NCBI RefSeq assembly: GCF_000190755.2
Contig: NZ_JH109152.1
Coordinates: 2,297,937-2,361,936, forward strand
DNA length: 64,000 nt
Reading direction: 5' to 3'
From: Methylobacter tundripaludum SV96
GTDB taxonomy: Bacteria; Pseudomonadota; Gammaproteobacteria; Methylococcales; Methylomonadaceae
The notes under the pieces are model-generated. The model was not told the origin of the DNA, searched no databases, and saw nothing but the letters and a program-made list of their open reading frames with translations. Shown here one piece after another: positions 18,594-37,331 of the stretch (the first letter of the stretch is position 1; each line of letters begins with the position of its first letter). The translations under genes and the position numbers were made by a program.

Positions 18594-20516
18594 ATGGCTA
18601 TCGTCAAAAAAACCAATACCAGAACCGCCTCCGCATCAGCGGTAGAAGGCAGTCATTCGTCTAGCGTGACTGCACGCGATGCGGATGCCCAGCGCAAGAA
18701 AGCGCGTACCCTCGCCAAACAACAGCAGGCGGCAGAGCGCATCGCTGCAGCAACCGGTCAGCTGGCCTCCGGCATTAACGAAGCGGCTTCCGCGTCCGAA
18801 GAATTGAAGCGCGCCGGCGACCAGATCGCCACCGGCGCCGAAGAAGCATCAGGCGCTGCTCAGGAATCGCTGGCAGCGGTCAACCAGGTAAGCGTTGCCA
18901 TTGCCCGTCAGTTGCAAAACGCAGACATCAGCCAGACCAAAGGCGAAGTCATACAAGCCTTGGTGGCCAAGGCCAGCGCTGAAGTCGCCGGTCTGGTGAC
19001 TAATGTGGGCGTGGCAGCGCAACGCCAGTCTTCGTCGGTGGAAAGGGTGGTCGAGCTTGAAAAGCAGGCGGCCAATATCGGCGATATCGTCAAGGCTGTA
19101 GCGCGCATTGCCGACCAGACCAACTTGCTGGCGCTTAATGCCGCGATTGAAGCGGCGCGCGCCGGACAGCACGGCAAGGGCTTTGCCGTCGTGGCCGACG
19201 AAGTGCGCACCCTGGCAGAAACGTCAGAAAAGAGCGCACAACAGATTCAGGAGCTGGTGGGACAAATTCAGCAGGAAGTTAAAGTCATCGCCGATGGCAT
19301 CAACACCTCGGCAAAAACCATCGAGGGAGAAATCGAAAACGGCAAGACCATCACCATGCAACTGGAACAGATCCGTGTGGATGTGATCGAGATCGTCGGC
19401 GGTATTCGGGAAATCGCCAGCGGCGCCCAGCAGTCCAGCACCGCAGCGCAACAGACCATGCAAGCCTCGGAAACGATTGCCTCGGCTGCTGAAGAGCAAT
19501 CCACTGCCGCTGAAGAAGCCGGTAAAACCGTGGAGGAACAAGCGCAAGCGTTGGCCGAGTGCGAGCAGGCCGCGCAAAACCTGTCCGAGTTGGCCGAAGA
19601 CCTTAAAAACTCCACCGACGTCGCCAAGAGCGCCGAAGAAGTGGCTTCCGCCGCCGAGGAACTGTCTTCCGCCGTGCAGGAAATCAACCGTTCCGGTACC
19701 CAGATCATGGCTGCTATCGAACAAATCCGTCGAGGCGCACAAGCGCAGGCGGCGGCGACCGAAGAATCTGCTGCTGCCATTGCCCAGATCGAAAAGGGTA
19801 TCGAAGTGGCCCAGGCCCGTGCGACCGTCGGCGGCGAAAAAGTTGCGGCAATCAAGGAACTATTGGATGTCAACAAAACGTCTATCGATACGATGATTGC
19901 CGGCGTTTCCGGTTCGGCAGACGCGACCCGCGACAGCATCAGGCAAGTCAAGGAGCTGGAGCTGGTGTCGCGCCGTATCGACAAGATTGTCGATGCCATT
20001 GCCACGGTTTCCATCCAAACCAACATGCTGGCCGTCAACGGCTCAATCGAAGCCGCGCGCGCCGGAGAATACGGCAAGGGCTTCGTGGTTGTAGCGACCG
20101 ATATTCGTAACTTGGCGCACGATTCCGCCGAGAATGCCGACCGCATCAAGGATCTGGTTAAAGCGGTACAGGATCAGATCGGTACAGTCGCTCGCGACTT
20201 GGAGGAGATCCAGGCTGCGGCGCTGAGCGAAGTGGAAAAGGCCAAGGCCACGACCGAAAATCTGGTGCTGATCGAAACCGACATCGCTGTGGTGGAAACC
20301 GGCACTACTGAAATACTGACCGCTTCCAACGAGATTGCCGCCGCCATCGCCCAGGTGAAAACCGGTGTGGACCAAATTTCCGCCGCCGCTCAGGAAGCCG
20401 AAAAAGCCGCTGCCGAGGCCGGCGCTGCCGCCACTCAGCAATCGCAAGGCGCTGAGGAACTGGCTGCCGCCGTCGAGGAGATTGCTTCTCTTGCCGACGA
20501 ACTGCAAAGCGCTTGA
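18594..20516 (+). CDS. Cytoplasmic chemoreceptor with two signalling tips
   Basis: A 640-residue methyl-accepting chemotaxis-type protein without membrane segment, signal peptide or recognisable ligand domain. It contains two complete receptor hairpin tips. The first is [20 protein letters not shown] then [16 protein letters not shown] (about 170-210). The second is [20 protein letters not shown] then [16 protein letters not shown] (about 470-510). The rest is Ala/Glu-rich coiled coil. Each tip normally contacts CheA and CheW, so one molecule could bridge two baseplates or bind twice. A good AAAGGAGAAACCCG site precedes the ATG. First gene of the chemosensory-stressosome locus; its input is probably protein-protein or metabolic. 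Confidence 0.92.
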
Positions 20517-20545
20517 TTTTGCCCATTGATTCCCAGGAGATTGTC

Positions 20546-22117
20546 ATGACTACCGAAACTCTGGAACAACGGGAGGATGCGCCGAGCGTCGATGGGGCAA
20601 CCGTCGACGTGCAGGAATCCAATATCCGTCAGTTCGTCACATTTATCGCCGGTGACGAGGTATTTGCCGTCGATATGGCCCCGGTGCAGGAAATCATCCG
20701 GGTTCCCGAGGTGGTGCGGGTGCCGCTGGCGCCGCACACCCTGGAAGGCCTAGCCAACTTGCGCGGCAAGGTGTTGCCGATTATTTCATTGCGGCGCATT
20801 TTTGGTTTTGGCGACCAGGAATACGACGACTCCACCCGTGCCGTGGTCATCGACCTGGGCCAGCCGCTGGGCTTCGTGGTGGATCGCGTCGCCAGCGTGG
20901 TCGGCGTCGAGCCCTCAAAAATCGATGATGTCGACTCGATTCGCGGCACCGTGGATACCGAGTTGCTGTCCGGCCTGCTCAAGGATGTGGGCGGTCACGA
21001 AATGATCATGGTGCTGGATTTTGCCAAGCTGATTGCCGCCGAGTTCGCCGACATCGCGTCGCTGTCCCGCTCGACTGCCGGTGAGCATTTGGTCGGCAAC
21101 CGCACGGACGAAGAGGAAGCGGAAAAGCTCAGCGATGAACTGCAACTGGTGAGCTTTGCCGTTGCCGGACAGGAATACGCCATTTCCATTGAAGACGTGC
21201 AGGAAATCGTCCAGGTGCCGGAGCATATCGTTCATGTGCCGCACTCGGAATCGCATGTGTTGGGGGTGATGACGCTCAGAAACCGCCTGCTGCCTCTGGT
21301 CAGTCTGCGGCGCATGTTCGGCTTGCCGACGCAGGATGCCGACGAGCATAGCCGCATCGTCGTGGTGGCGCTCGGCAATGCTTCAGTCGGCGTAGTGATG
21401 GATAGCGTTAACGAGGTGTTGCGCGTTCCCAAGGTTTATGTCGACAACATGCCAGGCCTGTTCGCTCGCGACGGCGACTTGTCCGATATTACCGAGATTT
21501 GCCGGTTGGATGAGGGCAAGCGTCTGGTGTCCATCATTTCTGTCGGCAATATGTTCCGTCATTCCGCCATTAAGGAGGCATTGAGCACCGTGGATAACTT
21601 ACGCGAAGAAGCAATAGGACAAGATGTTGTCGAAGGGCAGGATGACGACCGTATTGAAGATGATGAGCAGATGGTGGTGTTCCGTCTGGACAAGGAGGAA
21701 TTCGGGGTGCCGATTGACAGCGTACAGGAAATCGTGCGCGTGCCCGAGGAGCTGACTCATGTGCCTAGGGCTCCGGCTTTCGTGGAAGGCGTCATCAATC
21801 TGCGCGGAGCGGTGCTGCCGGTTATCGACCAGCGCTTGCGTTTGGGTTTGGCAACGACCGAACGCAACGACAGGCAGCGCATCATGGTGTTTTTGTTCGA
21901 CGGCGTGCGCACCGGTTTTATCGTCGATTCGGTGACCGAGGTGCTGAAAATACCGAAGGCGGCTATTGAGGTCGCGCCGAGCCTGTCCGGTGAGCAGACT
22001 CGCCTGATCGGCCGCGTCGCGAACCTCGAGAAGCAGAAGCGTTTGATCCAGCTGATCGATCCGTCGCAACTGATTGAAAGCCAGGATTTGAAAAGCTTGG
22101 CTCAGTTAGCACCGTAA
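20546..22117 (+). CDS. CheW protein with three tandem CheW domains
   Basis: About 523 residues starting at ATG 20546, five bases after AGGAGA; the in-frame TTG at 20513 overlaps the preceding stop and lacks support. Three CheW repeats are clear by their paired landmarks: FVTFIAGDEVFAVDMAPVQEI with LANLRGKVLPIISLRR; LVSFAVAGQEYAISIEDVQEI with TLRNRLLPLVSLRR; and MVVFRLDKEEFGVPIDSVQEI with VINLRGAVLPVIDQRL. CheW couples receptors to CheA. A triple protein could knit several receptor tips or replace CheA in array rings, fitting the double-tipped receptor next door. Confidence 0.93.
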   Translation: MTTETLEQREDAPSVDGATVDVQESNIRQFVTFIAGDEVFAVDMAPVQEIIRVPEVVRVPLAPHTLEGLANLRGKVLPIISLRRIFGFGDQEYDDSTRAVVIDLGQPLGFVVDRVASVVGVEPSKIDDVDSIRGTVDTELLSGLLKDVGGHEMIMVLDFAKLIAAEFADIASLSRSTAGEHLVGNRTDEEEAEKLSDELQLVSFAVAGQEYAISIEDVQEIVQVPEHIVHVPHSESHVLGVMTLRNRLLPLVSLRRMFGLPTQDADEHSRIVVVALGNASVGVVMDSVNEVLRVPKVYVDNMPGLFARDGDLSDITEICRLDEGKRLVSIISVGNMFRHSAIKEALSTVDNLREEAIGQDVVEGQDDDRIEDDEQMVVFRLDKEEFGVPIDSVQEIVRVPEELTHVPRAPAFVEGVINLRGAVLPVIDQRLRLGLATTERNDRQRIMVFLFDGVRTGFIVDSVTEVLKIPKAAIEVAPSLSGEQTRLIGRVANLEKQKRLIQLIDPSQLIESQDLKSLAQLAP

Positions 22118-22136
22118 GTTTAAGCGGAGGCGGCCT

Positions 22137-23192
22137 ATGATTAAATTATTGATTGTTGACGATTCGGCGCTGATGCGCCGTCAGCTGGTTTCGCTGTTTG
22201 AAGCGGAGGGCGGTTTCGAGATTCGTTTGGCGCGCAACGGCAAGGAGGCGGTGGCGGAAAACATCGCTTTCAAGCCGGACGTGGTTACGCTGGACATCAA
22301 TATGCCGGAAATGGACGGACTGACCGCTTTATCGTTGCTGATGGCGGAACGGCCGGTTCCGGTGGTGATGGTGTCGTCGCTGACCGAGAAAGGCGCGCTG
22401 GCGACTTTCGAGGCGCTGGCGTTGGGCGCGGTGGAGTATGTCGCCAAGCCCGGCGGCACCATTTCGCTGTCCATCGATGAGATCGGTCATGACCTGATAA
22501 GCAAGGTCAGGGCTGCGGCCCGCGCCAAGCTGAAAACGGCGCGCGGCCTTAGCTCGCGTATCCGCGCCGAGCGCAGTCGGCCAGAACGTCCGCCGGCTTT
22601 GGTGCGTAGCGGCATTGGCGGTGAGGGGCTGGTCATCATCGGCGTTTCCACGGGCGGGCCGCGTACGCTGGAGGACATCCTGCCGCTGTTGCCGGCGGAT
22701 TTCCCCTGGCCGGTGTTGGTGGCCCAGCACATGCCGAGCAGTTTTACGCTGCCTTTCGCCAATCGCATGAACGACCTTTGTCATTTACAGGTGGTTGAGG
22801 CCTCGCGGCCGATGCCGCTGGAACGCGGCACCATCTATATCGGCAAGGGCGGGGCGGACATGGTGGTCGCATCGCGCGCCGGTAAGATGACGGTGCTGGC
22901 GAAACCGGAGTCTGCCGAGTTTTTGTGGCATCCCTCGGTGGAGCTGATGGGGCGTTCGGTGCTCGAGCATTGCGACCCGGCGCGCGTCATTGGCGTGATG
23001 CTGACCGGCATGGGTTACGACGGCGCCGATGCGTTCGCCGAAATCAAAAAGAAAGGTGGCCGCACCATTGCCGAATCGGAGGAGTCTTGCGTCGTCTTCG
23101 GCATGCCTGCGGAGTTGATCAAGCGCGGCGGCGCATCGGTGGTGCTGCATGCGACCAAGATTGCCAATCAGATTATCGCCTGGGCCCGATAA
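22137..23192 (+). CDS. cheB: Chemoreceptor glutamate methylesterase CheB
   Basis: A 351-residue receiver-plus-methylesterase. The receiver has the acidic pair in LLIVDDSALMRRQL and phospho-acceptor Asp53 (VTLDINMPEMDG). The catalytic domain has Ser171 (IGVSTGGP), His198 (AQHMP) and Asp295 (LTGMGYDGADA), a complete triad. It removes methyl groups from (or deamidates) receptor glutamates, opposing CheR in the same operon. The linker (130-160) is basic and somewhat long. Confidence 0.95.
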   Translation: MIKLLIVDDSALMRRQLVSLFEAEGGFEIRLARNGKEAVAENIAFKPDVVTLDINMPEMDGLTALSLLMAERPVPVVMVSSLTEKGALATFEALALGAVEYVAKPGGTISLSIDEIGHDLISKVRAAARAKLKTARGLSSRIRAERSRPERPPALVRSGIGGEGLVIIGVSTGGPRTLEDILPLLPADFPWPVLVAQHMPSSFTLPFANRMNDLCHLQVVEASRPMPLERGTIYIGKGGADMVVASRAGKMTVLAKPESAEFLWHPSVELMGRSVLEHCDPARVIGVMLTGMGYDGADAFAEIKKKGGRTIAESEESCVVFGMPAELIKRGGASVVLHATKIANQIIAWAR

Positions 23193-23212
23193 AGGCCGGA
23201 TAAGGAGCAGAT

Positions 23213-23836
23213 ATGCCTATTATTAAACAACACACTATCCAGACGGTTGATGTCGATGAGCGGTTACAGCCGCGCGATTTCGCTGGGCTGACGGCCGAAT
23301 TGGCGGCCGATAATTCTACCGCCAGACGTTGGGCGGCGCGGGATTTGGCCGAGTTTCCGGAAGCTGCCGGGATCTTGGTGGAGAGGCTCAAACGCGAGGA
23401 GGATACCAGCGTACGCGAGGCCATACTGACCACTTTGGCCCGTCTGGGAGATCCGGCGGCGGTGGCGGGGCTGGTGGAATGCCTGCGTAGCGAGGATGCC
23501 TCTTTGCGCAATGAAGTCATCGAAGCCATGAAGGAATTGCCCGACGAAGTCGCTCCGATCATGAGCGAGTTGCTGGAAGATCATGACCCCGATGTACGTA
23601 TTTTTGCGGTGAATATTCTCGAATCGCTATGTCATCCGCAGGTCGAGGCATGGTTAATCAGCGTCATTGAAAAGGATGCGCATGTCAATGTCTGCGCCAC
23701 GGCGCTGGATCTGTTGAGCGAGGTGGGGACATTGGCTTCCCGTCCGGCATTGCAACAGCTCAAAGCGCGGTTTGCCGACGAGCCCTATATCGGCTTTACG
23801 GTCGACTTGGCTATTAAACGTATCGACGAGAATTAA
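23213..23836 (+). CDS. HEAT-repeat protein of the chemosensory locus
   Basis: A 207-residue all-helical protein. Repeats are seen as AARDLAEFPEAAGILVERLKREED, VREAILTTLARLGDPAAVAGLVECL, LRNEVIEAMKELPDEVAPIMSELLEDHDPDVRIFAVNILESL and so on, the HEAT/PBS-lyase-like pattern with a conserved Asp-Pro/Arg rhythm. No catalytic motif. HEAT proteins act as binding scaffolds. Between cheB and cheR it may bind a receptor, CheA or a methylation enzyme. AAGGAGCAG precedes the ATG. Confidence 0.85.
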   Translation: MPIIKQHTIQTVDVDERLQPRDFAGLTAELAADNSTARRWAARDLAEFPEAAGILVERLKREEDTSVREAILTTLARLGDPAAVAGLVECLRSEDASLRNEVIEAMKELPDEVAPIMSELLEDHDPDVRIFAVNILESLCHPQVEAWLISVIEKDAHVNVCATALDLLSEVGTLASRPALQQLKARFADEPYIGFTVDLAIKRIDEN

Positions 23837-23841: not shown

Positions 23842-24684
23842 ATGACAGAGATCACTATCAGCGAAGAAGATTTCCGGAAATTCCGGGAATACTTTTATCG
23901 CAAAACCGGCATCCAGTTCGAGGCATCCAAGCGCTATTTTGTCGACAAACGGCTGGTCGAACGTATCGAAGCGACCGATTCAGGTCATTTCCGCAATTAT
24001 TTCATGATGCTGCGCTTTGACGCTAAGGGGGACGAGCTGCAGACGCTGGTCAACCTGATGACCGTCAACGAGACCTATTTTTTCCGCGAAGAGTATCAGT
24101 TTCAGTGTCTGGTCAACTCGATGCTGGGCGAAATCGTCCGGCGTAAAAAAGACGACTCGCCGATCCGTATCTGGTCGGTTCCTTCTTCTTCCGGGGAAGA
24201 GCCTTATTCCATCGCGATTTACCTGTTGGAACATTGGCCGGGCATTGAAAAGTGGGATGTGGAAATCATCTCATCGGATATCGATACCGACATTATAACG
24301 CGGGCGCGGCGCGGCCATTATTCGCCGCGATCAGTGCAACACTTGCCGCCGAGACTGCTGCAAAAATATTTTGTGCCCTGCGTCGGCGGTTACCAAATCA
24401 GCGATGACTTGCGCGATGCGGTGGAGTTTACCCGCGTCAACCTGATGGAAGCGGCGGATGTGCGGGCTTATCGCGGGTTCGACGTAATTTTTTGCCGCAA
24501 CCTGCTGATTTATTACGATGACATGTCGCGCCGTCAGGCGGCGGAGACCTTCTTCGACGCCCTGAATCCGGGCGGGTTCATCTGTCTCGGCCATTCGGAG
24601 TCGATGAGCCGGATTTCTTCTTTGTTCCGGGTGCGCAAGTTCCCGGAAGCGATTGTGTATCAAAAGCCCTTGGGGGACCTATGA
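23842..24684 (+). CDS. cheR: Chemoreceptor methyltransferase CheR
   Basis: A 280-residue SAM-dependent enzyme methylating receptor glutamates. The N-terminal helical part (EDFRKFREYFYRKTGIQF) is followed by MTVNETYFFRE, the SAM-site neighbourhood IWSVPSSSGEEPYSIA, where the usual Ala-Cys of AxCSTGEEPYS is replaced by Val-Pro-Ser, and DVIFCRNLLIYYDD and LNPGGFICLGHSES. The Ser-Ser-Gly-Glu-Glu-Pro-Tyr core is kept, so activity is likely. Its last bases overlap the next gene (ATGA). Confidence 0.95.
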   Translation: MTEITISEEDFRKFREYFYRKTGIQFEASKRYFVDKRLVERIEATDSGHFRNYFMMLRFDAKGDELQTLVNLMTVNETYFFREEYQFQCLVNSMLGEIVRRKKDDSPIRIWSVPSSSGEEPYSIAIYLLEHWPGIEKWDVEIISSDIDTDIITRARRGHYSPRSVQHLPPRLLQKYFVPCVGGYQISDDLRDAVEFTRVNLMEAADVRAYRGFDVIFCRNLLIYYDDMSRRQAAETFFDALNPGGFICLGHSESMSRISSLFRVRKFPEAIVYQKPLGDL

Positions 24685-25052
24685 AACGTATCCTCGTCGT
24701 GGACGACGCCGCCACGGTACGTCTGTATCACCGCAACATACTCGAAGCTGCCGGCTATGCGGTGGATGAGGCCGTCAACGGGATTGAGGCCATGGAAAAA
24801 GCCTTGCAGACGCCTTTCGACCTGTATGTGGTCGATATCAACATGCCCAAGCTGGACGGTTACGGATTCCTGCGGGAAATACGCAGCCAGGAAATCGCCC
24901 AGCCTCCGGCGATCATGGTGTCCACCGAAGCCGAGAGCAATGACCGGCACCGGGCTTATCGCGCCGGTGCCAATATTTATCTGATCAAGCCGGTGAAACC
25001 GGATGGCTTGCTGACCTACATTCGCCTGTTGCTCGCGGAGGAGCGTACATGA
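24681..25052 (+). CDS. CheY-like single-domain response regulator (first copy)
   Basis: A 123-residue stand-alone receiver. Acidic pocket in ILVVDDAATVR, phospho-acceptor Asp52 (VVDINMPKLDGYGFL), switch threonine or serine at VSTEAES, conserved Lys in LIKPVKPDGL. It overlaps cheR and cheA by four bases on each side, so its level is tied to both. Likely direct phosphate target of the local CheA. Whether it reaches a flagellar motor or acts as phosphate sink or relay to the stressosome part cannot be told from sequence. Confidence 0.93.
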   Translation: MKRILVVDDAATVRLYHRNILEAAGYAVDEAVNGIEAMEKALQTPFDLYVVDINMPKLDGYGFLREIRSQEIAQPPAIMVSTEAESNDRHRAYRAGANIYLIKPVKPDGLLTYIRLLLAEERT

Positions 25053-27682
25053 ATCCATTATTGGAACAATTTCTCTCGGAAGCGCGGGATTTCCTGCACG
25101 GCATCGCCGAGAAGCTGATGCAGCTGGAAAACGACCCCGGCAGTACGCCGGTCATGAACGAGTTGTTCCGGCTGGTGCATACCCTGAAAGGCAACAGCGG
25201 CCTGTTCGAGTTTCCGGAAATGACGCGGGTGCTGCATGCCGGCGAGGACTTGCTGGATGCGGTGCGCGACGGCCGGGTCGGGTATTCCCAGGAACTGACC
25301 GACCGCCTGCTGGATGCGATGGATTTCGTCAATTTGCTGGTGGATGAAATCGAATCGAACGATGGGGCGATCGGTTCGGACCATGCGCAAAATGCGCTGC
25401 GTCTGGCTGAGTCGCTACGGCAGCTGATTGGCGTTACCGCCGTCGAGGTTAAAGCCCCGGTTGCTGAAGCTTCCCAGGCCTCATCGGTGCACAACATGCC
25501 GGAACTGCCACGGCTTGCCGAATTGCCGGAACAGCAGCGTATGGCGTTATATCGCGAGGCGCTGGCCGGAGACACTTTGCTGTTTGTGGAGTACACGCCG
25601 GAACAGGAATGTTTTTTTAAGGGGGAAGATCCTTTCCACCAGGCGCGGCAGATTCCTGATGTCGTCTGGCAGTCGGTGCTGCCTCGCGAACCGTGGAGCG
25701 CGCCGGCCGAGCTGGATGCCTATCATTGCAACCTGGTCTTTAATGCGCTGACCACGGCTGCGCCCGAAGAGTTGTACGAGCTGTTCCGTTACACCCCGGA
25801 ACAGCTGCGCATCGTCCCGTTGCCGCCTATTGTGCTGGCTCTGCCTCATGGCGATCCAAACGGCGGGCCGGTGTACGGCGATTTTGTCACCGATGCGCTG
25901 GGTCGACTGGATACCGGCGACATGGCCGGGTTGGAATCCGTTGCCCGCACCATGCTGGAGCTGTCTTCCCCCAGCCTGTGGCTGTCTTCGGGCTTGCGCT
26001 GGCTGCTGTTGGTGCTTGAACTGGAACCCGGCAACCGCTATGCGCAACGCACCTTGATAGAGTCTCTGGGTAGCTTGACGTTGCCGGTCTGGACGACGCC
26101 GGAAACAGCGGTTGAAGCTGATTCGGAGCTTGTCGGCGAGAGGTTTTCTGAAGCCGATGCGCGGGCTTTTGCCGACATCCTGCAAGCGCAGCGTGAAATT
26201 CTCGGCTTACCGGATAGCGATGCATGGCTGCCCGGCAGATTGAATGCGGCGGCGACCGCGCTTGCGGCCTGCCAACGCAGTGCCGGGCGGATCGAGGCGT
26301 TACCGACGTTGGAAGCGGCGCTGGCAGAGGCTCTGGATAGCGTTGAGGCAGCGCCGTTGTTGGCATGGCTGGATGCGCACGCGCCGCTTGATCGGTCTGC
26401 AACGGCCGAGTCGGAGGCGGAGGCCGCGCCGATGCAGGTGCGCAATGCGCTGATCGATGTGGAGTCTGATAATAAGTTCGGTCGTCGCGTCGAGGATTCT
26501 TACGTCGGGCCCAAGACGCTCAAAGTGGATCAGGACAAAATCGACAACCTGATGGGCTTGATCGGCGAAATGGTGGTGGCCAAGAACAGCCTGCCTTATC
26601 TTGCCAGCCGGGCCGAGACGCAATACGGGGTGCGCGAACTGGGTCGCGAGATCAAGACCCAATATGCGGTCATCAACCGTATCGCCGAGGAAATGCAGGA
26701 TGCCATCATGCAGGTGCGGATGATGCCGGTGTCGTTTGTGTTCCAGCGTTTTCCGCGACTGGTGCGCGATACCTCCAGAAAACTGGCTAAGGAAGTGAAC
26801 CTGATACTGGAAGGCGAAAACACCGAGGCCGACAAGAATATTGTCGAAGCGCTGGCCGACCCGTTGATTCATATTGTGCGCAACAGCCTCGATCACGGCA
26901 TTGAAACGCCGGAAGTCCGGCGTGCCGCGGGTAAGCCGCCTGCCGGACGGCTTACCATTCGCGCCACGCAGGAAGCGGACCGGGTGTACATTGAAATTTC
27001 CGATGACGGCAAGGGCATCGATCCTACTATCATCAAACGCAAGGCTTACGAGAAAGGCATTATCGACGAATCCACGATGGAACGACTGAGCGACCAGGAA
27101 GCGGTGAACCTGGTGTTCGCCGCCGGATTCTCCACGGCGGAGGTGATTTCCGACCTGTCCGGCCGAGGCGTCGGCATGGACGTGGTACGCAGTGCGGTAG
27201 AAAAAGTCAACGGCACCGTCAGCCTGGAAAGCGAGTTGGGTAAGGGTACGTTGATCCGCTTGTCGTTGCCGCTGTCGATGGCGGTTACCAATGTGATGAT
27301 CGTCGAGTCCGACAAGCAGATTTTCGGCGTGCCGATGGACATGGTGGTGGAAACCGTCCGCGTATCGAGAAGCGCCATCCGTACCATCAAAAAACGCCAG
27401 ACTACGGTTTTGCGCGGCCGCATCGTGCCGCTGCTGGCGCTCAACGAGTTGCTGGCGATTGACGCTGAGCCGTACGCCAACGAGGACGACGAATTGGCAA
27501 CGCTGGTGGTGCGCGTCCACGAAGAACACGTCGGCATTGTGGTCGACGATTTTCGCGAAACCGTGGACATCATCCTCAAACCGATGGCCGGGATCATTGG
27601 CGGTCTGGGCGGCTATTCCGGCTCGGCGCTGCTGGGTGACGGTTCGGTGCTGATGGTCTTAAACCCAAGGGAGCTTGTGTAA
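25049..27682 (+). CDS. cheA: Chemotaxis histidine kinase CheA
   Basis: An 877-residue kinase, longer than E. coli CheA (654). The N-terminal phosphotransfer domain has His44 in RLVHTLKGNSGLF. Then comes a roughly 370-residue middle region without recognisable P2, including LLFVEYTPEQECFFKGEDPF and a helical, Ala/Leu-rich part. After about 490: dimerisation helices (KIDNLMGLIGEMVVAKN), the ATPase with N box HIVRNSLDHGIE, G1 ISDDGKGID, and the AGFSTAEVISDLSGRGVGMDVV block, then a CheW-like regulatory domain. There is no C-terminal receiver. Catalytically complete. The novel middle region may bind a partner particular to this locus. Confidence 0.95.
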   Translation: MNPLLEQFLSEARDFLHGIAEKLMQLENDPGSTPVMNELFRLVHTLKGNSGLFEFPEMTRVLHAGEDLLDAVRDGRVGYSQELTDRLLDAMDFVNLLVDEIESNDGAIGSDHAQNALRLAESLRQLIGVTAVEVKAPVAEASQASSVHNMPELPRLAELPEQQRMALYREALAGDTLLFVEYTPEQECFFKGEDPFHQARQIPDVVWQSVLPREPWSAPAELDAYHCNLVFNALTTAAPEELYELFRYTPEQLRIVPLPPIVLALPHGDPNGGPVYGDFVTDALGRLDTGDMAGLESVARTMLELSSPSLWLSSGLRWLLLVLELEPGNRYAQRTLIESLGSLTLPVWTTPETAVEADSELVGERFSEADARAFADILQAQREILGLPDSDAWLPGRLNAAATALAACQRSAGRIEALPTLEAALAEALDSVEAAPLLAWLDAHAPLDRSATAESEAEAAPMQVRNALIDVESDNKFGRRVEDSYVGPKTLKVDQDKIDNLMGLIGEMVVAKNSLPYLASRAETQYGVRELGREIKTQYAVINRIAEEMQDAIMQVRMMPVSFVFQRFPRLVRDTSRKLAKEVNLILEGENTEADKNIVEALADPLIHIVRNSLDHGIETPEVRRAAGKPPAGRLTIRATQEADRVYIEISDDGKGIDPTIIKRKAYEKGIIDESTMERLSDQEAVNLVFAAGFSTAEVISDLSGRGVGMDVVRSAVEKVNGTVSLESELGKGTLIRLSLPLSMAVTNVMIVESDKQIFGVPMDMVVETVRVSRSAIRTIKKRQTTVLRGRIVPLLALNELLAIDAEPYANEDDELATLVVRVHEEHVGIVVDDFRETVDIILKPMAGIIGGLGGYSGSALLGDGSVLMVLNPRELV

Positions 27683-30462: not shown

Positions 30463-30848
30463 AAATCCCTATTCTGCGTTTGGGCAGGATTCTGCTGAGT
30501 TCCATCCAGGTCGATCTCACCGATGCCGATGCGATGCAGTTTCAGGACGATTTGGTCAATAAAATCGCCGAAATCGAGGCCTTGGGCATCGTCATCGACA
30601 TTACCTCGCTGGAGGTGGTCGATTCGTTCATGGCGCGTGTCATCAACGATACCGCCGGCATGGCCCGCCTTCTGGGCGCCGAGGTGGTCATCTGCGGCGT
30701 CCAGCCTTATGTGGCCATGACGCTGGTGGAGATGGGCCGGGATCTGATCGGTGTCGATTGCACCTTCAATCTCGATCAAGGGCTGGAAATAATCAAAGCG
30801 CGGATTGAGATGCGCGGCGATGCAAGGATGATTGAGGGGGAGGGATGA
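30459..30848 (+). CDS. rsbS: Stressosome scaffold RsbS
   Basis: A 129-residue single STAS-domain protein. MKIPILRLGRILLSSIQVDL and GIVIDITSLEVVDSFMAR are characteristic of RsbS, and the phosphorylated serine is kept at Ser56 (VVDSF), equivalent to Bacillus Ser59. VVICGVQPYVAMTLVEMG is the family's C-terminal half. It overlaps rsbR before it and rsbT after it, so the three should be made in fixed ratio. Confidence 0.95.
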   Translation: MKIPILRLGRILLSSIQVDLTDADAMQFQDDLVNKIAEIEALGIVIDITSLEVVDSFMARVINDTAGMARLLGAEVVICGVQPYVAMTLVEMGRDLIGVDCTFNLDQGLEIIKARIEMRGDARMIEGEG

Positions 30849-31264
30849 CCACGCAGCCGACAAACTCATCTGAACGGGTGCCGATTCTCGATGCGTCGGA
30901 CATTGTGCGGGCGCGCGGCGTTGCCCGGCAAGTGGCGGGACGGATCGGTTTCGGCCTTGCCGACCAGACGCGTTTGGCGACAGCGGTCTCCGAGTTGGCG
31001 CGCAATGTCGTGCAGTACGGCGAAGACGGTTTTTGTGAGATTGTCGATGCATCCGATCACAATGAAATGCGGCTGGGCATTCTGGTTGAGGATCACGGTT
31101 CCGGTATTGATAACATCGATAAAGCCATGAAGGATGGTTACACCACCGGCGGCGGATTGGGCGCGGGTTTGCCGGGCACCCGCAGGTTGATGGATGAATT
31201 TGTCATTGAATCGGAGCCGGGACTTACCCGCATCAGCATTGCCTTGGTCAGAAAACGATCTTGA
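30845..31264 (+). CDS. rsbT: Stressosome switch kinase RsbT
   Basis: A 139-residue GHKL ATPase/kinase. The N box is SELARNVVQYG, G1 is VEDHGSGI and the G2 region GGGLGAGLPGTRRLMDEF is intact. Known role: phosphorylates RsbS and RsbR, is released from the stressosome and then binds an output protein through that protein's RsbU-type N-terminal domain. Here no RsbU phosphatase is present; instead two proteins with that domain (32255 and 34919) follow in the locus and are the likely targets. Confidence 0.94.
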   Translation: MTTQPTNSSERVPILDASDIVRARGVARQVAGRIGFGLADQTRLATAVSELARNVVQYGEDGFCEIVDASDHNEMRLGILVEDHGSGIDNIDKAMKDGYTTGGGLGAGLPGTRRLMDEFVIESEPGLTRISIALVRKRS

Positions 31265-31272: not shown

Positions 31273-31662
31273 ATGAACAAAATAAGTGTCTACGTGGCCG
31301 GTGAACCTAATGTCGCCGAAGCCGTCCGCACCGCCAAGCTCATGGCATCGGAGCTAGGGTTCGCCAGGATACAAGCCTATTACATCGCTACCGCGGCATC
31401 GGAGTTGGCTGCCAACCTGTTTATCCATGCCGACGGCGGTATGTTTGAAGTCTCTGCATTGACGGATCGTCCCGGTCTGGAGCTGGTGGTTACCGATCAT
31501 GGCCCCGGCATTGCCGATATAGAGAAGGCCTTGCAGGACGGTTACAGCACCGCAGGCGGTTTGGGCTGCGGCCTGCCCGGCGTGCAGCGGCTGATGGATG
31601 AAATGGATATTAACAGTCAACCCGGTCAGGGGACGGTGGTGAGGGCGCGCAAATGGCTGTAA
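31273..31662 (+). CDS. RsbW/RsbT-like GHKL ATP-binding protein (first copy)
   Basis: A 129-residue small kinase-fold protein. Start ATG 31273 chosen for AAGGAAGG immediately upstream; the open frame begins at a TTG inside the rsbT stop. ASELAANLFIHADGG (N box), VTDHGPGIADI (G1) and GGLGCGLPGVQRLMDEMDI (G2) are intact. It resembles RsbT more than sigma-binding RsbW. No sigma-B-type factor or anti-anti-sigma of RsbV type is visible nearby, so its target is unknown. A diverged, frameshifted copy lies at 34512. It overlaps the next gene by ten bases. Confidence 0.88.
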   Translation: MNKISVYVAGEPNVAEAVRTAKLMASELGFARIQAYYIATAASELAANLFIHADGGMFEVSALTDRPGLELVVTDHGPGIADIEKALQDGYSTAGGLGCGLPGVQRLMDEMDINSQPGQGTVVRARKWL

Positions 31663-32237
31663 CAATCGGTTATGCGACGCGCCCGCTGGCGGGAGAGACG
31701 GTCTGCGGCGACAGTTGCGGCTGGTGGCGCTCCGGCGAGCGCATTGTATTGGCCGTGGCCGACGGCCTGGGTCATGGACCGGAGGCCGCTTACGCTTCCG
31801 AAGCCGCCTTGGCCTGTATCGCTAACAACTTGAGTCGGACTTGCGAAGACCTGTTTGCCGATTGCGACGCCTGTTTGCAAGATACGCGCGGCGTGGCGTT
31901 GGCCGTCGCTATTATCGAACCGGCCACCGGTCTAATGACGGTTTGCACGGTCGGCAATATCCGGGTTCTGCTGCTGTGCGACAGCAAAGACAGCAGGCTT
32001 GATGGCGGACGAGGCATTGTCGGCGCGGGCTATCAAAACCTGGTCCCGGAAACGCGGGTGCTTGCTCCGGGAAATGTGTTGGCGATGTTTTCCGACGGGC
32101 TGGATCAATTTCCCGCATTGCGGGAGGTTTTTGTCGAACCCGGAGTATCCGCGAAAGATCAGGCGCAAGCGATACTGGATCACTGTGCGCACAATGACGA
32201 CGATGCCTCGGTGTTGATTTACCGCCATGAGTTTTAA
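31653..32237 (+). CDS. rsbX: RsbX-like PP2C/SpoIIE phosphatase
   Basis: A 194-residue PPM-type phosphatase. The metal-binding aspartates are visible in GDSCG (N-terminal), VADGLGHGPEAAYASE and FSDGLDQFP, and the C-terminal HNDDDASVLIY is typical. RsbX resets the stressosome by dephosphorylating RsbS-P and RsbR-P. The size and position right after rsbT-type genes fit RsbX rather than RsbU, and it lacks the RsbT-binding N-terminus. Its start overlaps the preceding gene. Confidence 0.88.
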   Translation: MAVTIGYATRPLAGETVCGDSCGWWRSGERIVLAVADGLGHGPEAAYASEAALACIANNLSRTCEDLFADCDACLQDTRGVALAVAIIEPATGLMTVCTVGNIRVLLLCDSKDSRLDGGRGIVGAGYQNLVPETRVLAPGNVLAMFSDGLDQFPALREVFVEPGVSAKDQAQAILDHCAHNDDDASVLIYRHEF

Positions 32238-32254: not shown

Positions 32255-34510
32255 ATGAAACAGGATGTAGAACGCTATTTTCATATTCTGCAACAGGTAG
32301 CGTTTGCCGCGGATGCGGACGCTATTGAAGTCCATTTGGCCGAGGCCTTCGAGCTGAGCCGCATTTGGGTCGACCGGGGGGTGCCGCCTGACGAAGTGAC
32401 GCTCCTTCATCATGACGCGATGGTGCGCTTGTCTACGGCGCATCCCGAGTTAATTTTTGCTCAGGTGGCGGATCGTTTGACCCGACCGTTAATGGAAATG
32501 TCCATGGCTTATGGGATGGCCTTTCGCGAACAAATGGAGCAGCGTTATCAGGCCATCGTCAACTCCCGCCTTAAGCAGTCGCACAGCTTGGAGTCGGTCG
32601 GTAAACTGGCGGCGGGCATCGCCCATGATTTCAATAATCTGCTGGGCAACATCGGCGGTTTTGCGGAAATTGCGGCGGACAAACTGATGCCCGGTTCTTC
32701 GGCCGGAGACGACTTTAATAATATGGTCGACAACATCAATACCTTGCTAACCGCCGAACAGGCCATGTTGGAAGAAATCGCATTAAACGAGCGCCGTTTC
32801 CGCTCTTTGGTGGAAAACTCGCCGGACATTATTGTCCGTTACGACCGGGATTGTCGGCGTGTATTTGTTAATCCGGCTTACATTCGGGAAACGGATACAC
32901 CTGCTGAGCTGGTGCTTAACAAAAGCACCGATGATGCTAATGTTTGGCGTCCCAGCATGCCGCGCGAAGAATACCGCAAGAGGCTGCAACAAGTCATGGA
33001 CACCGGGGTTACGGATCAAATCCTGCTGGAGTGGGTGCGCCAGGATGCTCAGCGGGTAAGCCATGAAATGTACGTAGTGGCTGAATACGATGCCGATGGC
33101 GATGTCATAGGTACCTTGGCGATCGGTAGGGATGTAACCCGTAGCAAAGAAGCCGAGCGGCAATTGCTCCATCAAGCTAGTTACGACATCCTGACCGGCT
33201 TGCCGAACCGGCGACTGTTCGGTGACCGGCTGGGTAAGGACGTTGCCAAGGCCAAACGTAACGACTTTGGCTTAGCGGTATTGTTTATCGACTTGGATCG
33301 ATTCAAGGAAGTCAACGATACCTTGGGTCATGCTGTTGGCGACCTGTTGCTAAAAAAAGCAGCGCAACGCATTTGCAGCTGTGTGCGCGAATCCGACACG
33401 GTGGCGCGTTTTGCAGGCGACGAATTTGTCGTGATCTTGCCGGAAGTCGGCGAAAGCGGGGCTTTGCAACGGATAGCGCAAAACATCGTCGGCGTTATGG
33501 CGCAGTCCTTCACTTTTGGCGAACATAGCGCTTACGTCTCGGCCAGCATCGGTATTGCCATTTTTCCGCAGGATGGCGACAACGCAGATACGCTGGTCGG
33601 ATGCGCCGACCAGGCCATGTATTCGGCTAAAAAAACGGGTCGCAACAATTTTTGCTTCTTTAACCGTCAGATGCTGGAGCTGGCCCACCAGCGCATGCAA
33701 CTGGGCAACGACCTTCACGATGCGCTGGGCAAAGGCCAACTTGAGGTGTTTTACCAACCGATCATCGATGTGGTCAGCGGTCGGGTTGTCAAGGCTGAAG
33801 CGCTGTTGCGCTGGCGGCATCCCGAATGGGGCATGGTGCCGCCTGACCGGTTTATTCCGATAGCTGAAGAAACCGACCTGATCCAGGAAATCGGCGCCTG
33901 GGTATTTCGCGAGGCGGCGGATACCGTTAAGCGCTGGAATGCCCTCTCGGCAAACCAAGGTCAGCGGCAGATCAGTGTCAACATGTCGCCGCGCCAGTTC
34001 ACCCGGGGGCGCGGCGAGCAAATTATCATTAATTATATGCAGGCTTACGGTCTTGATCCGGCGCATATTGCGGTCGAAATAACGGAAGGGCTGTTGCTGG
34101 ATAATTGTCCGGGCGTCACCCAAAAACTGGAAAAGTTGCGCGCGGCCGGTATCGAGATTTCACTGGATGACTTCGGCACCGGCTATTCGGCGATGGCCTA
34201 TCTGAAAAGATTCAACATCGATTACCTGAAGATCGATCAGTCTTTCGTCCGCGATTTGGAAACCGATCCGGGCGACCGGGCGATAGCGGAAGCGATTGTG
34301 GTGATGGCGCATCGCTTGGGCTTGAAGGTGATAGCGGAAGGCGTGGAAACCGAAGGCCAGTATGCGCTGCTGGCGGAAGCGGGTTGCGAATACGTGCAGG
34401 GCTATTTGTTCGCCAAACCGATGCCGGTTGAGGCATTTCTGGCATTTGTTAATGCCGACGCACAGAAACCGGCTGTTATAGAGGGACCGTTAGCGGTCTT
34501 GATGAGATGA
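32255..34510 (+). CDS. RsbU_N-(orphan HisKA)-PAS-GGDEF-EAL c-di-GMP protein
   Basis: A 751-residue composite. Residues 1-100 match the RsbT-binding N-terminal domain of RsbU (VPPDEVTLLHH and EMSMAYGMAFREQM). Next is a histidine-kinase H box (LAAGIAHDFNNLLG, His124) with no ATPase domain. PAS about 180-295 (RFRSLVENSPDIIVRYD). GGDEF about 305-475 with RESD inhibitory site and signature AGDEF. EAL about 490-735 with EALLRW, VEITEGLLL, LDDFGTGYS, LKIDQSF and EGVETEGQ, so phosphodiesterase activity is likely. Inference: RsbT released from the stressosome switches c-di-GMP turnover. The first 150 residues are paralogous to the kinase at 34919, pointing to a fusion after duplication. Confidence 0.93.
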   Translation: MKQDVERYFHILQQVAFAADADAIEVHLAEAFELSRIWVDRGVPPDEVTLLHHDAMVRLSTAHPELIFAQVADRLTRPLMEMSMAYGMAFREQMEQRYQAIVNSRLKQSHSLESVGKLAAGIAHDFNNLLGNIGGFAEIAADKLMPGSSAGDDFNNMVDNINTLLTAEQAMLEEIALNERRFRSLVENSPDIIVRYDRDCRRVFVNPAYIRETDTPAELVLNKSTDDANVWRPSMPREEYRKRLQQVMDTGVTDQILLEWVRQDAQRVSHEMYVVAEYDADGDVIGTLAIGRDVTRSKEAERQLLHQASYDILTGLPNRRLFGDRLGKDVAKAKRNDFGLAVLFIDLDRFKEVNDTLGHAVGDLLLKKAAQRICSCVRESDTVARFAGDEFVVILPEVGESGALQRIAQNIVGVMAQSFTFGEHSAYVSASIGIAIFPQDGDNADTLVGCADQAMYSAKKTGRNNFCFFNRQMLELAHQRMQLGNDLHDALGKGQLEVFYQPIIDVVSGRVVKAEALLRWRHPEWGMVPPDRFIPIAEETDLIQEIGAWVFREAADTVKRWNALSANQGQRQISVNMSPRQFTRGRGEQIIINYMQAYGLDPAHIAVEITEGLLLDNCPGVTQKLEKLRAAGIEISLDDFGTGYSAMAYLKRFNIDYLKIDQSFVRDLETDPGDRAIAEAIVVMAHRLGLKVIAEGVETEGQYALLAEAGCEYVQGYLFAKPMPVEAFLAFVNADAQKPAVIEGPLAVLMR

Positions 34511-34511
34511 A

Positions 34512-34877
34512 ATGAATAAAGTATGCATTCAGGTGGCCGGTGAACCGGACATTGTCGAAGTTGCCCGCCAAGTTAGGCAGACGGCATTGGCGTTAAGGTT
34601 TAGCGCCGCGCAAGCCCATTACATTGCCACCGCCGCCTCGGAATTGGCGGCCAACCTGTTTATCCATGCCGACGGGGGGGTGATTGAAGCGTCCTGTCTG
34701 AAGGATCGTTCCGGTATAGAGCGGGTGGCTACCGATCAGGGCCCCGGCATTGGCGATATTGACAAGGTGTTGCGGGGCGATTATAGCACGGCTGACGGAT
34801 TAGGCTGCGGCCTGCTCGGCGTGCAGCGGCTGATGGATGAGATGGACATCGACAGGTACGGTAGTGAGGGCGCGTAA
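34512..34877 (+). CDS. RsbT/RsbW-like ATP-binding protein (second copy, diverged and shortened)
   Basis: A 121-residue paralogue of the 31273 product (shared IATAASELAANLFIHADGG and LMDEMDI). Differences hit motifs: G1 reads ATDQGPGI instead of VTDHGPGI and the G2 loop LGCGLLGVQ has Leu for Pro. A small deletion shifts the frame near the end, giving a different tail (DRYGSEGA) where copy one has VVRARKWL; the out-of-frame bases for that tail are still present. It may be decaying or weakly active. Only one base separates it from the GGDEF-EAL stop. Confidence 0.8.
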   Translation: MNKVCIQVAGEPDIVEVARQVRQTALALRFSAAQAHYIATAASELAANLFIHADGGVIEASCLKDRSGIERVATDQGPGIGDIDKVLRGDYSTADGLGCGLLGVQRLMDEMDIDRYGSEGA

Positions 34878-34921
34878 ATGGCTGTGATGATTGGCATTGA
34901 CATGGAGGTTGTGCGCCCATG
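34877..34921 (+). pseudogene. Remnant of a deleted rsbX-like gene start
   Basis: An ATG at the end of the second RsbT/RsbW-like copy reads MAVMIGIDMEVVRP before a stop that overlaps the next gene's ATG. In the first copy of this block the same position starts the RsbX-like phosphatase with MAVTIGY. Preceding bases (GTGAGGGCGCG, AAATGGCTGT) are also shared. The remaining 180 or so codons are gone, so copy two lost its phosphatase by deletion. Confidence 0.6.
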
Positions 34922-35965
34922 AAACCGATCGGGGAACGCTATTTCCAGATTCTGCAACAGGTGGTCTTTGCCGATGATACCTATGCGATTGAAGTTTATT
35001 TGGCCGAAGCCTTTGAGCTGGGCCGGGCCTTGGTCGATCAAAAGGTGCCGCCGGATGAGGTGACGCATATTCATCATGAAGCGGTGGTCAGGTTTTCCCG
35101 AACGCATCCTTCATTAAGTTTCGCGCAGGTGGCCGATCGTTTGACCCGGCCGTTGATGGAAATGACCATGGCGTATGGCTTGGCTTTTCGCGAACAAATG
35201 GAGCGTCAGTATCAGGATATGGTCAATTCCCGCTTGGCGCAGTCGCACAAACTGGAAGCGGTCGGCACGCTTGCGGCGGGTATCGCTCATGATTTCAATA
35301 ACCTGTTGGGTAGTATCATCGGTTTCGCGGAAATGGCGGGAGATGAGCTGCCGGAGGGGTCTTCCGGGAAACATAGCATTAACCATGTGTTGACCGCCAG
35401 CTTTCGTGCCCGCGACCTTGTTACCCGAATGTTGACCTTTGCCAGACAAAGCCCGGTCAAGTCGGTAGCGGTGGAAGTGGAGGTGGTCGCGCAAATGCAG
35501 GAAACATTGGAGCTGTTGAGTGTTTCTTATAAGAAGGGTTTGGAAATCCGTTTTCAGACCGGCATCGAGCGAGTGACGGTGATGGCCGATCCCGGCCAGT
35601 TGCAACAGATCGTGATGAACTTGTGCATCAATGCGGCCGATGCCATGAGCCATCGGGGCGTGGTGGCCGTTGGTCTTGATTTCGCCAGATTTGACGACTG
35701 TGCGAAGGCGGGCATTTGCCTGAAGGTTATCGATAGCGGACACGGTATGCCCCCTGAGGTGCAGGAACGGATATTCGATCCTTTTTTTACCACTAAAGCA
35801 CCCAACAAAGGCAGTGGGCTGGGGCTTTCCGTGGTGTACGGCATTGTCACCCAATTGGGCGGACTCATAGAAGTGCAAAGCCGGGCTGCCGGCGGTAATT
35901 CGGGAACGGAATTCAAGGTGTTTTTGCCTTTGGCGAATAATCCCCCCGATGGGGAAAACGGCTAG
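34919..35965 (+). CDS. Histidine kinase with RsbU-type N-terminal domain
   Basis: A 348-residue soluble kinase. Residues 1-100 are an RsbU_N-like domain (VPPDEVTHIHHEAV, EMTMAYGLAFREQM), proposed to bind RsbT. Then HisKA with His124 (LAAGIAHDFNNLLG) and a HATPase with N box IVMNLCINAADAM, G1 DSGHGMPPEV and G2 KGSGLGLSVVYG. No membrane segment. The C-terminal NNPPDGENG is encoded by a short CCCC/GGGG repeat seen again at 36121..36141 and may be acquired. A receiver follows at 36188, its probable partner. This would tie stressosome activation to a phosphorelay. Confidence 0.92.
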   Translation: MKPIGERYFQILQQVVFADDTYAIEVYLAEAFELGRALVDQKVPPDEVTHIHHEAVVRFSRTHPSLSFAQVADRLTRPLMEMTMAYGLAFREQMERQYQDMVNSRLAQSHKLEAVGTLAAGIAHDFNNLLGSIIGFAEMAGDELPEGSSGKHSINHVLTASFRARDLVTRMLTFARQSPVKSVAVEVEVVAQMQETLELLSVSYKKGLEIRFQTGIERVTVMADPGQLQQIVMNLCINAADAMSHRGVVAVGLDFARFDDCAKAGICLKVIDSGHGMPPEVQERIFDPFFTTKAPNKGSGLGLSVVYGIVTQLGGLIEVQSRAAGGNSGTEFKVFLPLANNPPDGENG

Positions 35966-36054: not shown

Positions 36055-36187
36055 TTCCTCCCCGTAAACGAGGAGGTTACCCAAAAGGATAACGATGCCA
36101 GTGCATCGTTGTCAAACTCAAATAATCCCCCTGAAGGGGGAAGTTTCAGACCAGCGAAAAAATTTGATGAATGAGGAAATAAGCAAA

Positions 36188-36556
36188 ATGGCACGTATTT
36201 TAGTTATTGAAGATGATGAGCAATTCCGCGAGATGCTGGTTCAGATGTTGACTCAGGATGCCCATAGGGTAACGGTTGCCCATGACGGCGAAGAGGGCTT
36301 GCGGCTCAGTCGGCAAGTCCGGCCGAACCTGATTATCACCGACATACTCATGCCGCGTATGGACGGTATTGAGACCATAATGGAATTGGCGCGGCAGGGC
36401 GGGGATACTCCCATCATTGCCATTTCCGGCGGACGGCGTTCGATCAGCGCCGAATTCAACCTTGAATCGGCGACGCTGATGGGGGTTAAGGCGACGCTTG
36501 CGAAACCTTTCACCAGAGCCGATTTGCGTCAGGCCATAGAGCAGGCGCTGGGCTGA
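36188..36556 (+). CDS. Single-domain response regulator
   Basis: A 122-residue receiver starting MARILVIEDDEQFREM. Acidic pair Asp9/Asp10 region, phospho-acceptor Asp52 (IITDILMPRMDGIE), serine at AISGGRRS and Lys in ATLAKPFTRADL. Start at 36188 is supported by GAGGAA nine bases upstream; the frame is open further up (to 36095) through repeat DNA without homology. There is no output domain. The likely phosphoryl donor is the RsbU_N histidine kinase upstream. Confidence 0.9.
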   Translation: MARILVIEDDEQFREMLVQMLTQDAHRVTVAHDGEEGLRLSRQVRPNLIITDILMPRMDGIETIMELARQGGDTPIIAISGGRRSISAEFNLESATLMGVKATLAKPFTRADLRQAIEQALG

Positions 36557-36563
36557 AACGACT

Positions 36564-37331
36564 ATGACAATATCACCTTATATTATCGCCATTTCCAACC
36601 GTAAGGGCGGCACCGGCAAAACCACCGTATCGGTTAATATTGCCGCTGAACTGGCCGCTCTCGGCAAGCGGGTGCTGTTGGTGGATTTGGATACGCAAGG
36701 ACACTGCGCCGTGGGGCTGGGCGTTAATGCGACGCCCCCCGAGCATTCCGTTCATAATCTTTTTATCGACCCGACCGCCCGGTTGGCCGATGCCATCCGG
36801 GATACCGATTTCCCCAATCTTTTTCTCGCGCCCGCTGACCAGTTATTCGAGCATGGCAGCGGCGTGCGCGACGTACGGCGTCTGGCGAATGCGCTTGCCG
36901 AGCCGGAAATCAAGGAGCGTTTCGATGTGGTGATCGTGGATACGCCGCCTTCATTCGACGTTCTGCTGCTCAATGCGCTTTCTGTGGCGAATTGGGTGCT
37001 GGTTCCCTATGTTCCCCACCACCTGTCTTTCGAGGGGGTGCGGCAATTGATGCGGGTGCTGTTTAAAGTGATGTCGGGAGAAAACCCCAGCCTGAAGATC
37101 TTGGGGTTTCTGCCGATGATGGTTGCGCAACATATCCGACAGCACCGGGCCATTAGCGGCGAAGTTTCCCGCCAGTTCGGCGCTCACCGGGTGATGTCGG
37201 GAATTCGTAATGACATCCGCTTGGCCGAATCCTTTGCCGCGGGCAAGCCCATCCGTTACTACGCGCCGAAAAGCCGTGCTGCGGAAGACTTCGCCCAACT
37301 CGGGGCTGTTCTTGTTCAACTGTGTAGCTGA
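36564..37331 (+). CDS. ParA-like ATPase closing the chemosensory locus
   Basis: A 255-residue ParA/MinD-family ATPase distinct from the chromosomal parA at 4015. Deviant Walker A RKGGTGKTTVSVNIA, switch I VDLDTQGHCAVGL, and VIVDTPPSFDVLLLNAL are intact. In other bacteria, ParA-type proteins in chemotaxis operons (ParC in Vibrio, PpfA in Rhodobacter) position polar or cytoplasmic receptor clusters. The cytoplasmic receptor at the head of this locus makes a similar role attractive. No parB or cargo-adaptor gene follows. It ends the run of same-strand genes. Confidence 0.9.
   Translation: MTISPYIIAISNRKGGTGKTTVSVNIAAELAALGKRVLLVDLDTQGHCAVGLGVNATPPEHSVHNLFIDPTARLADAIRDTDFPNLFLAPADQLFEHGSGVRDVRRLANALAEPEIKERFDVVIVDTPPSFDVLLLNALSVANWVLVPYVPHHLSFEGVRQLMRVLFKVMSGENPSLKILGFLPMMVAQHIRQHRAISGEVSRQFGAHRVMSGIRNDIRLAESFAAGKPIRYYAPKSRAAEDFAQLGAVLVQLCS

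Follow-up and report, generated by a model that had tools for sequence, protein, structure and literature searches.

Chemosensory systems of the F9 class, to which cluster I of Vibrio cholerae belongs, carry two signatures, a receptor consisting of two signalling domains and three CheW units concatenated in one protein, the triple CheW (PMC9321776, PMC7534058). A survey covering 2781 species reports full sets in 64 and says that their role still awaits discovery, and 98% of the homologues of the receptor DosM have no sensory domains in one survey, so that additional inputs to F9 are to be expected (PMC9321776); the system is also regarded elsewhere as functionally still poorly understood (PMC7534058). 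Here and below, statements on published systems refer to the portions of the cited articles consulted. The locus described here comprises about 20 genes on the plus strand, at positions 18594–37331 of a 64-kb window (the whole stretch of DNA analysed) from Methylobacter tundripaludum SV96, and by its Pfam matches unites a chemosensory system with a stressosome. As far as its genes tell, it is best described as a conserved, stressosome-bearing variant of the F9 chemosensory locus.

F9 arrays are double-layered and cytoplasmic, and stressosomes are large particles of RsbR and RsbS; both machines of the window are known here from their genes. The che half of the locus resembles the F9 locus of V. 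cholerae in its receptor with a double signalling domain, triple CheW, CheB, CheR, CheY and CheA (PMC7534058, PMC11940527, PMC9321776). The V. cholerae locus also includes VC1394, a membrane methyl-accepting chemotaxis protein (MCP) with a 24H signalling domain, which the MCP-like gene of the window resembles in make-up, as judged from its description rather than by sequence comparison. The window locus differs by the insertion of a stressosome cassette and an RsbU_N kinase; stressosome genes go unmentioned in the F9 descriptions, in the portions consulted.

For V. vulnificus and other Gram-negative bacteria, rsbRSTX modules whose outputs are RsbU_N, GGDEF/EAL or HisKA/REC proteins have already been described (PMC9237108), and the window shares with them the R-S-T-X order, the downstream RsbU_N proteins and the types of output. 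Unlike the modules of the V. vulnificus type, that of the window has an RsbR with an RsbRD_N domain and not a globin, contains a second RsbT-like kinase and is embedded in a full CheA locus; in addition, the core of its histidine kinase (HK) is unlike that of the one unlinked Gram-negative module compared. In V. brasiliensis a stressosome stands beside a putative CheY-like gene, from which its authors suggested a control of aerotaxis; no CheA/CheW/MCP system is described there in the portions consulted (PMC4976288). Titles and abstract openings of the papers listed by literature searches contain no description of RsbRST inside a CheA/CheW locus; the supplementary gene-order tables of PMC9321776 lie outside this coverage and may list one without remark.

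A preliminary description of the window had singled out a full CheA system in the same run as RsbRST as unusual. This is not a chance adjacency: in 11 of the 80 public loci the cassette sits at the corresponding place, and it is linked to an F9 locus in a genome of another class (G548), and the trees of the two halves are congruent.

Gene content of the locus

The genes are, in order, with the chemosensory part ending at the MCP-like gene and the second part starting at RsbR:

18594..20516, plus strand: DosM-like cytoplasmic receptor with two MCP signalling tips (Pfam MCPsignal, two stretches)
20546..22117, plus strand: triple CheW, CheW3 (Pfam CheW, three stretches)
22137..23192, plus strand: CheB, receiver Asp53 (Pfam)
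23213..23836, plus strand: HEAT-repeat protein of the F9 core (Pfam; same place in most relatives)
23842..24684, plus strand: CheR (Pfam)
24681..25052, plus strand: CheY1, Asp52 (Pfam)
25049..27682, plus strand: CheA, P1 His44 (Pfam)
27682..27915, plus strand: STAS-fold protein of the F9 core, 77 aa, with CxHxH replacing the phospho-Ser loop
27932..28306, plus strand: CheY2, Asp54 (Pfam)
28308..29561, plus strand: MCP-like membrane protein bearing a QDxxxQ motif and ending in ELF (Pfam MCPsignal, 4e-15)
29584..30462, plus strand: RsbR, RsbRD_N and STAS, Thr186/Thr220 (Pfam, alignment)
30459..30848, plus strand: RsbS, Ser56 (matches to stressosome, E 4e-31, and to Bacillus RsbS, E 5e-31)
30845..31264, plus strand: RsbT kinase (HATPase_c_2; position, conservation)
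31273..31662, plus strand: second RsbT/RsbW-like kinase, T' (HATPase_c_2; 44% identical to RsbT)
31653..32237, plus strand: RsbX-type PP2C phosphatase (SpoIIE/PP2C; RsbX structure 3w40, E 2e-12)
32255..34510, plus strand: RsbU_N-DHp-PAS-GGDEF(AGDEF)-EAL protein, confined to the window lineage as far as the loci seen
34512..34877, plus strand: third RsbT-like kinase, a duplicate of T' (78% DNA identity over 341 aligned bases)
34919..35965, plus strand: RsbU_N-HK, His124 (Pfam; orthologue adjoins the cassette in all 11 other loci)
36167..36556, plus strand: single-domain REC, Asp83 in the numbering of the frame from 36095 (Pfam; counterparts in rsb-free F9 loci)
36564..37331, plus strand: ParA-like ATPase (Pfam; in F9 loci with and without rsb)

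Every gene named in the preliminary description is present on the plus strand in the order it gave (Pfam); its list had passed over the third RsbT-like gene at 34512–34877, and the STAS gene is the one at 27682–27915. The start of CheW3 is moved from TTG 20513 to ATG 20546 by the aligned starts of relatives, and the likely starts of the RsbW-like gene and of REC are 31273 and 36167 or 36188, respectively. Junctions range from -10 to +41 bp, with 22 bp between the MCP-like gene and RsbR (29561/29584) and the exception of about 200 bp between HK and REC. A plus-strand scan gave no promoter-like site at 17459–30236 and no terminator-like site at 24481–31404, which says little because the sites were fewer than shuffled sequence averages.

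The che half is assigned to the F9 class, which the preliminary description had not recognised, by its double-tip receptor and triple CheW. In the receptor, the two MCPsignal stretches are accompanied by no further Pfam domain at E<=0.01, and its counterparts are 68–94% identical in most of the 80 loci and 44–46% identical in four.

The matches identify the rsb half as a stressosome module: for RsbR and RsbS they are to solved stressosome proteins, and for the adjoining RsbX to an RsbX structure; RsbT, which also adjoins RsbR-RsbS, has no sequence match in the PDB at E<=0.001 and is assigned by domain and place. Ser56 of RsbS aligns with the acceptor residue of the solved proteins. Alignment to Listeria RsbR, whose phosphorylation sites are Thr175/Thr209, gives Thr186 and Thr220 as the acceptor threonines. 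Thus, among the phosphorylation sites proposed earlier, CheA His44, CheB Asp53, RsbS Ser56 and RsbR Thr220 stand, while RsbR Thr252 gives way to Thr186.

Conservation of the che-rsb linkage

The public loci with triple CheW are the best 80 of 179 relatives, and they include pairs from one genome (e.g. L130/L132), so that they count loci and not species. A neighbourhood search for rsbRST near cheA finds the two together in relatives: rsbRST comes directly after the MCP-like gene in the 11 loci mentioned, 46 were scored as lacking it and 23 remained unscored. The label follows script rules applied without inspection, namely that REC or ParA is matched behind the che genes, or that the sequence past the MCP-like gene is free of matches for more than 2.5 kb. 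The unscored L112 appears to be the same contig as L203, where no rsb match lies within about 8 kb; the count is left as computed.

The carriers are methanotrophs (Methylobacter, Methylicorpusculum, Methylotuvimicrobium with the cultured M. buryatense 5G, L085), purple sulfur bacteria (two Allochromatium, Thiorhodococcus, Halochromatium, Ectothiorhodospira, Lamprobacter) and Burkholderiales (Undibacterium and a Burkholderiaceae bin). The nearest public locus, from a Methylobacter metagenome bin, has a triple CheW 95% identical to that of the window.

In the family of the window, full-length triple CheW is found in at least 29 of 237 genomes, and RsbS at >=68% identity in four (G000, G097, G005, G010), each time inside the F9 locus. 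Among 398 genomes chosen evenly over the phylum, at least 8 have triple CheW, 39 have an RsbS-like match and at least 2 have the two together, namely the window's own genome and G548. These searches scored the first six (family) or three (phylum) triple-CheW candidates per genome, and copies may be missed. In G548 the linkage is kept with one CheY-like gene between the MCP-like gene and RsbR, and the HK is not followed by a REC.

For two relatives of the F9-linked rsb subfamily, no che genes are in view. L074 (G216:C340, 12749–14640) carries RsbS-T-T'-X of this subfamily at the end of its contig; RsbR is not matched there, and the 12 kb upstream contain no match to CheA, CheW or a receptor. 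L256 (G654:C25, 4499–9893) has RsbRSTT'X near the subfamily and, behind it, a GGDEF gene and an HK; its 10-kb contig is free of che matches.

Joint inheritance of the two halves

For 12 F9-rsb loci, the tree of five che proteins and the RsbR-S-T tree have 8 of 9 splits in common; none of 10,000 label shuffles reached 8 common splits, the maximum being 4. These trees indicate that the cassette is inherited together with the che genes. F9-linked RsbRST separate from most unlinked modules, with moderate support for an exclusive clade (73/85). This RsbR-S-T tree omits L081, and the larger one L081, L189, L190, L191, L235 (the gene of L254), L225 (the gene of L256) and L246–L253. When G548 is added, the data neither establish nor reject one clade for all 13 F9-linked cassettes (approximately unbiased p-value, p-AU, 0.118). 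The RsbRST of G548 do not group with the modules of two genomes of the same genus (L229, L242). A second, convergent capture of a stressosome in G548 was considered and is not favoured, its RsbRST lying near the F9 subfamily on a long branch.

On a che tree built by a quick method from the 74 of 81 loci having at least four of the five genes, rsb appears in three groups, the methanotrophs, the purple sulfur bacteria and the Oxalobacteraceae/Burkholderiaceae, the last two of which contain rsb-free members. We read the che-rsb linkage as probably old, with losses or with transfer of the whole unit.

The RsbU_N kinase and the predicted wiring

The cassette is adjoined by an RsbU_N-type HK in all 11 other loci. 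In the rsb-free F9 locus L093, an HK stands in the same position between the MCP-like gene and REC, with a PAS domain in place of RsbU_N; this gene (L093:15930–17297) looks like a natural domain swap. HK cores are 49–66% identical among the five rsb-bearing loci compared (the core of L254 was not found and is excluded), and the cores of L114, with rsb, and L093, without, are 68% identical. To the PAS-HK near the rsb-free F9 locus L043, the HK core is 37–44% identical. By comparison, the HK of L075, the one unlinked stressosome HK compared, is 29% identical to L093 and 27–30% identical to the rsb-bearing loci. As the cores of L093 and L114 are alike and that of L075 is distant, the kinase seems to go with the F9 locus, while its input domain is exchanged along with RsbRST. 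We therefore read RsbU_N as an exchangeable plug from the stressosome to HK-REC, and a wiring through RsbU_N is likely.

In 10 loci the sequence continues beyond the HK; 9 of these have REC after it, in L194 at a distance of one gene, and 5 have ParA. Both also occur in rsb-free F9 loci. Since REC is found in rsb-free F9 loci and, in loci with rsb, usually comes after the RsbU_N kinase, it is by inference the best candidate for the meeting point of the two branches.

It appears rather probable that a stressosome switch is built into the F9 locus and acts via the RsbU_N plug on HK-REC(-ParA). According to this predicted wiring, stress would be sensed through the N-terminal domain of RsbR, upon which RsbT would phosphorylate Thr186 and Thr220 of RsbR and Ser56 of RsbS and would then detach. 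Once free, RsbT would dock on RsbU_N of the neighbouring HK and alter its activity on REC, and RsbX would reset the switch. CheA of the array would feed CheY1 and CheY2. Both branches would most likely meet at REC, which may act with ParA.

An F9-embedded conserved stressosome would offer a concrete candidate input together with a testable wiring (RsbT, RsbU_N, HK, REC). Loci with and without rsb, including one kinase core bearing either PAS or RsbU_N, form natural experimental pairs.

Several observations weigh against a built-in switch. The rsb label needs at least five changes on the che tree (unscored loci left out), and repeated loss or transfer must therefore be assumed. As 46 of the 57 scored public loci are F9 without rsb, the stressosome is unnecessary for F9 as such. 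L074 and L256, on short contigs, hold relatives of the F9-linked rsb with no che genes in view. The junction between the MCP-like gene and RsbR is loose in several relatives, with 11 to 202 bp in 8 of 11 and an overlap in 3, going by the starts of open reading frames. Although the Pfam RsbU_N model matches all ten cassette kinases scanned, 8 of them, including that of the window, lie below its cut-off of 25.5 bits: the window HK scores 25.4 and its GGDEF-EAL neighbour 18.4, eight relatives score 18.2–34.8 (two above the cut-off) and G548 scores 15.9, L082, L083 and L085 being outside the scan. The unlinked modules L075 and L076, which also possess two RsbT-like kinases, show the order R-S-T-T'-X followed by an HK matching over the RsbU_N segment, so that the cassette could have arrived with its own HK instead of plugging into a resident one. 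Finally, REC of the window lies about 200 bp from the HK with a hairpin between them, and L133, like G548, has no REC after the HK.

The hairpin in question (36027–36050) has a weak T tract, and REC-ParA could be a separate transcript here.

The two machines may instead merely reside together, sharing conditions of expression such as starvation or low oxygen, each with its own output, which is possible but clearly less probable than the built-in switch. Congruent trees show linkage and not contact, most scored F9 loci do without rsb, unlinked modules have their own RsbU_N-type HK, and the V. vulnificus stressosome is expressed in starvation (PMC9237108). What speaks against mere co-residence is the kinase: its core in rsb-bearing loci is 50–68% identical to that of rsb-free L093 and far from that of unlinked L075, and L093 is without RsbRST and RsbU_N together.

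Stronger than the switch via RsbU_N is the proposal that array and stressosome form one joint sensory machine. In it, the stressosome would be a long-retained F9 input acting via RsbT/RsbU_N at HK-REC(-ParA), REC would also be reached by CheA, and the small STAS protein, with a CxHxH motif that is possibly metal- or redox-sensing, would be a contact point. This is doubtful; if true, F9, a class whose function is unexplained, would gain a role linked to stress. Crosstalk between CheA and the stressosome may occur, and the sharing of components, as suggested earlier for this window, is plausible.

The small STAS protein

The 77-amino-acid product of the STAS gene has no Pfam match at E<=1, and its predicted model shows a STAS fold. 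The best matches among solved structures are RsbV from the RsbV/RsbW complex and SpoIIAA. At the position of the phospho-Ser loop of STAS anti-anti-sigma factors, the family has an invariant Cys and a near-invariant CxHxH, formed in the window protein by C41, H43 and H45, which may bind metal or respond to redox state. Instead of a phosphorylatable Ser/Thr the window protein has Ala46/Ala47, a position assigned by eye from the motif; across the family it is mostly Ala or Pro, with Ser/Thr in 12 of 68 sequences at 46 and Ser in 8 of 68 at 47. This makes ordinary partner switching driven by phosphorylation unlikely.

A described protein of similar make-up is CheS, a single-domain STAS protein encoded in alphaproteobacterial che operons, which binds CheA (PMC12654446). 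The window protein differs in its length of 77 amino acids, its invariant Cys and its near-invariant CxHxH; the likeness noted is one of domain make-up. A term search of PMC10542144 yielded nothing on STAS, F9 or RsbR.

By analogy with CheS and CheA in Sinorhizobium, the F9 STAS protein could be a physical bridge, linking array and stressosome through binding to RsbT, T' or CheA. The structural matches to RsbV and SpoIIAA, the CheA binding of CheS and the position of the STAS gene next to cheA are in line with such a role, but the protein occurs in rsb-free F9 loci too and the residues at its phospho-Ser position disfavour ordinary switching, so that a bridge is unlikely.

The c-di-GMP branch

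The RsbU_N-PAS-GGDEF-EAL protein has an intact EAL motif and an AGDEF in place of GGDEF. Its N-terminal 158 residues are 70% identical to the N-terminus of the HK (34919), past the phospho-His, and the starts of the two genes share 76% DNA identity over 446 bases. At 31273–35364, T' and the HK start appear tandemly duplicated, with PAS-GGDEF-EAL fused in and a copy of RsbX missing. The order T'-X-[HK start fused to PAS-GGDEF-EAL]-T' copy-HK is what a single tandem duplication would leave if the RsbX copy was lost afterwards. No gene of GGDEF-EAL type lies between RsbX and the HK in any of 11 relatives, including the closest, Methylobacter L082. Same-strand GGDEF-EAL genes stand slightly downstream in L114, L119 and L085, where the matches stop short of the RsbU_N segment. 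Among the loci seen, the window lineage alone has this gene, which goes back to a duplication of the kinase gene.

In terms of the RsbU_N wiring, this duplication would have set the plug on a PAS-GGDEF-EAL protein, giving the window lineage a private branch to cyclic di-GMP (c-di-GMP), so that, in a single lineage, a c-di-GMP enzyme acquired a copy of the predicted RsbT-docking segment. The preliminary description had proposed that both machines control the same c-di-GMP output; the joining of che and rsb in that interpretation holds, while a common c-di-GMP output as the conserved purpose is not supported. Convergence of both machines on this protein, favoured by its place within the run, its intact EAL motif and the downstream genes of L114, L119 and L085, is very improbable given its origin as a kinase-gene duplicate, its lack of counterparts between RsbX and HK and the downstream matches ending short of the RsbU_N segment.

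The MCP-like protein and other observations

The MCP-like protein (28308–29561) may be a phosphatase or a response-regulator-binding protein instead of a receptor. QDxxxQ and a C-terminal [EQ]LF are each present in 57 of 57 sequences. A CheZ-type phosphatase was considered, for which the QDxxxQ motif is suggestive, yet profiles and fold search do not establish CheZ. The NCBIfam CheZ profile gives E 0.0067 with the whole protein and 0.0017 with its C-terminal part, both far below the cut-off, as are its matches at E<=0.1 to 7 of 21 members of the family. An hhalign comparison with CheZ gives E 0.0097 at a probability of 4% (0.27 for a control receptor), and a Pfam CheZ search in 21 genomes did not list the window gene at E<=1. 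The predicted model (pLDDT 76.7, pTM 0.36) has chemoreceptors as its best matches, and CheZ is not among the 50 of 150 structural matches listed. A chemotaxis model of the BB0569 type matches 18 of the 21 members.

A DGCcoil-GGDEF protein is encoded on the minus strand just past ParA (37909–39447). The genome measures 4.85 Mb in three contigs, of which C1, the contig of the window, has 2.94 Mb. CheW-family matches occur at four further places (C1, C2, C3) outside the locus, each with one long frame of 708–883 amino acids that may be another CheA.

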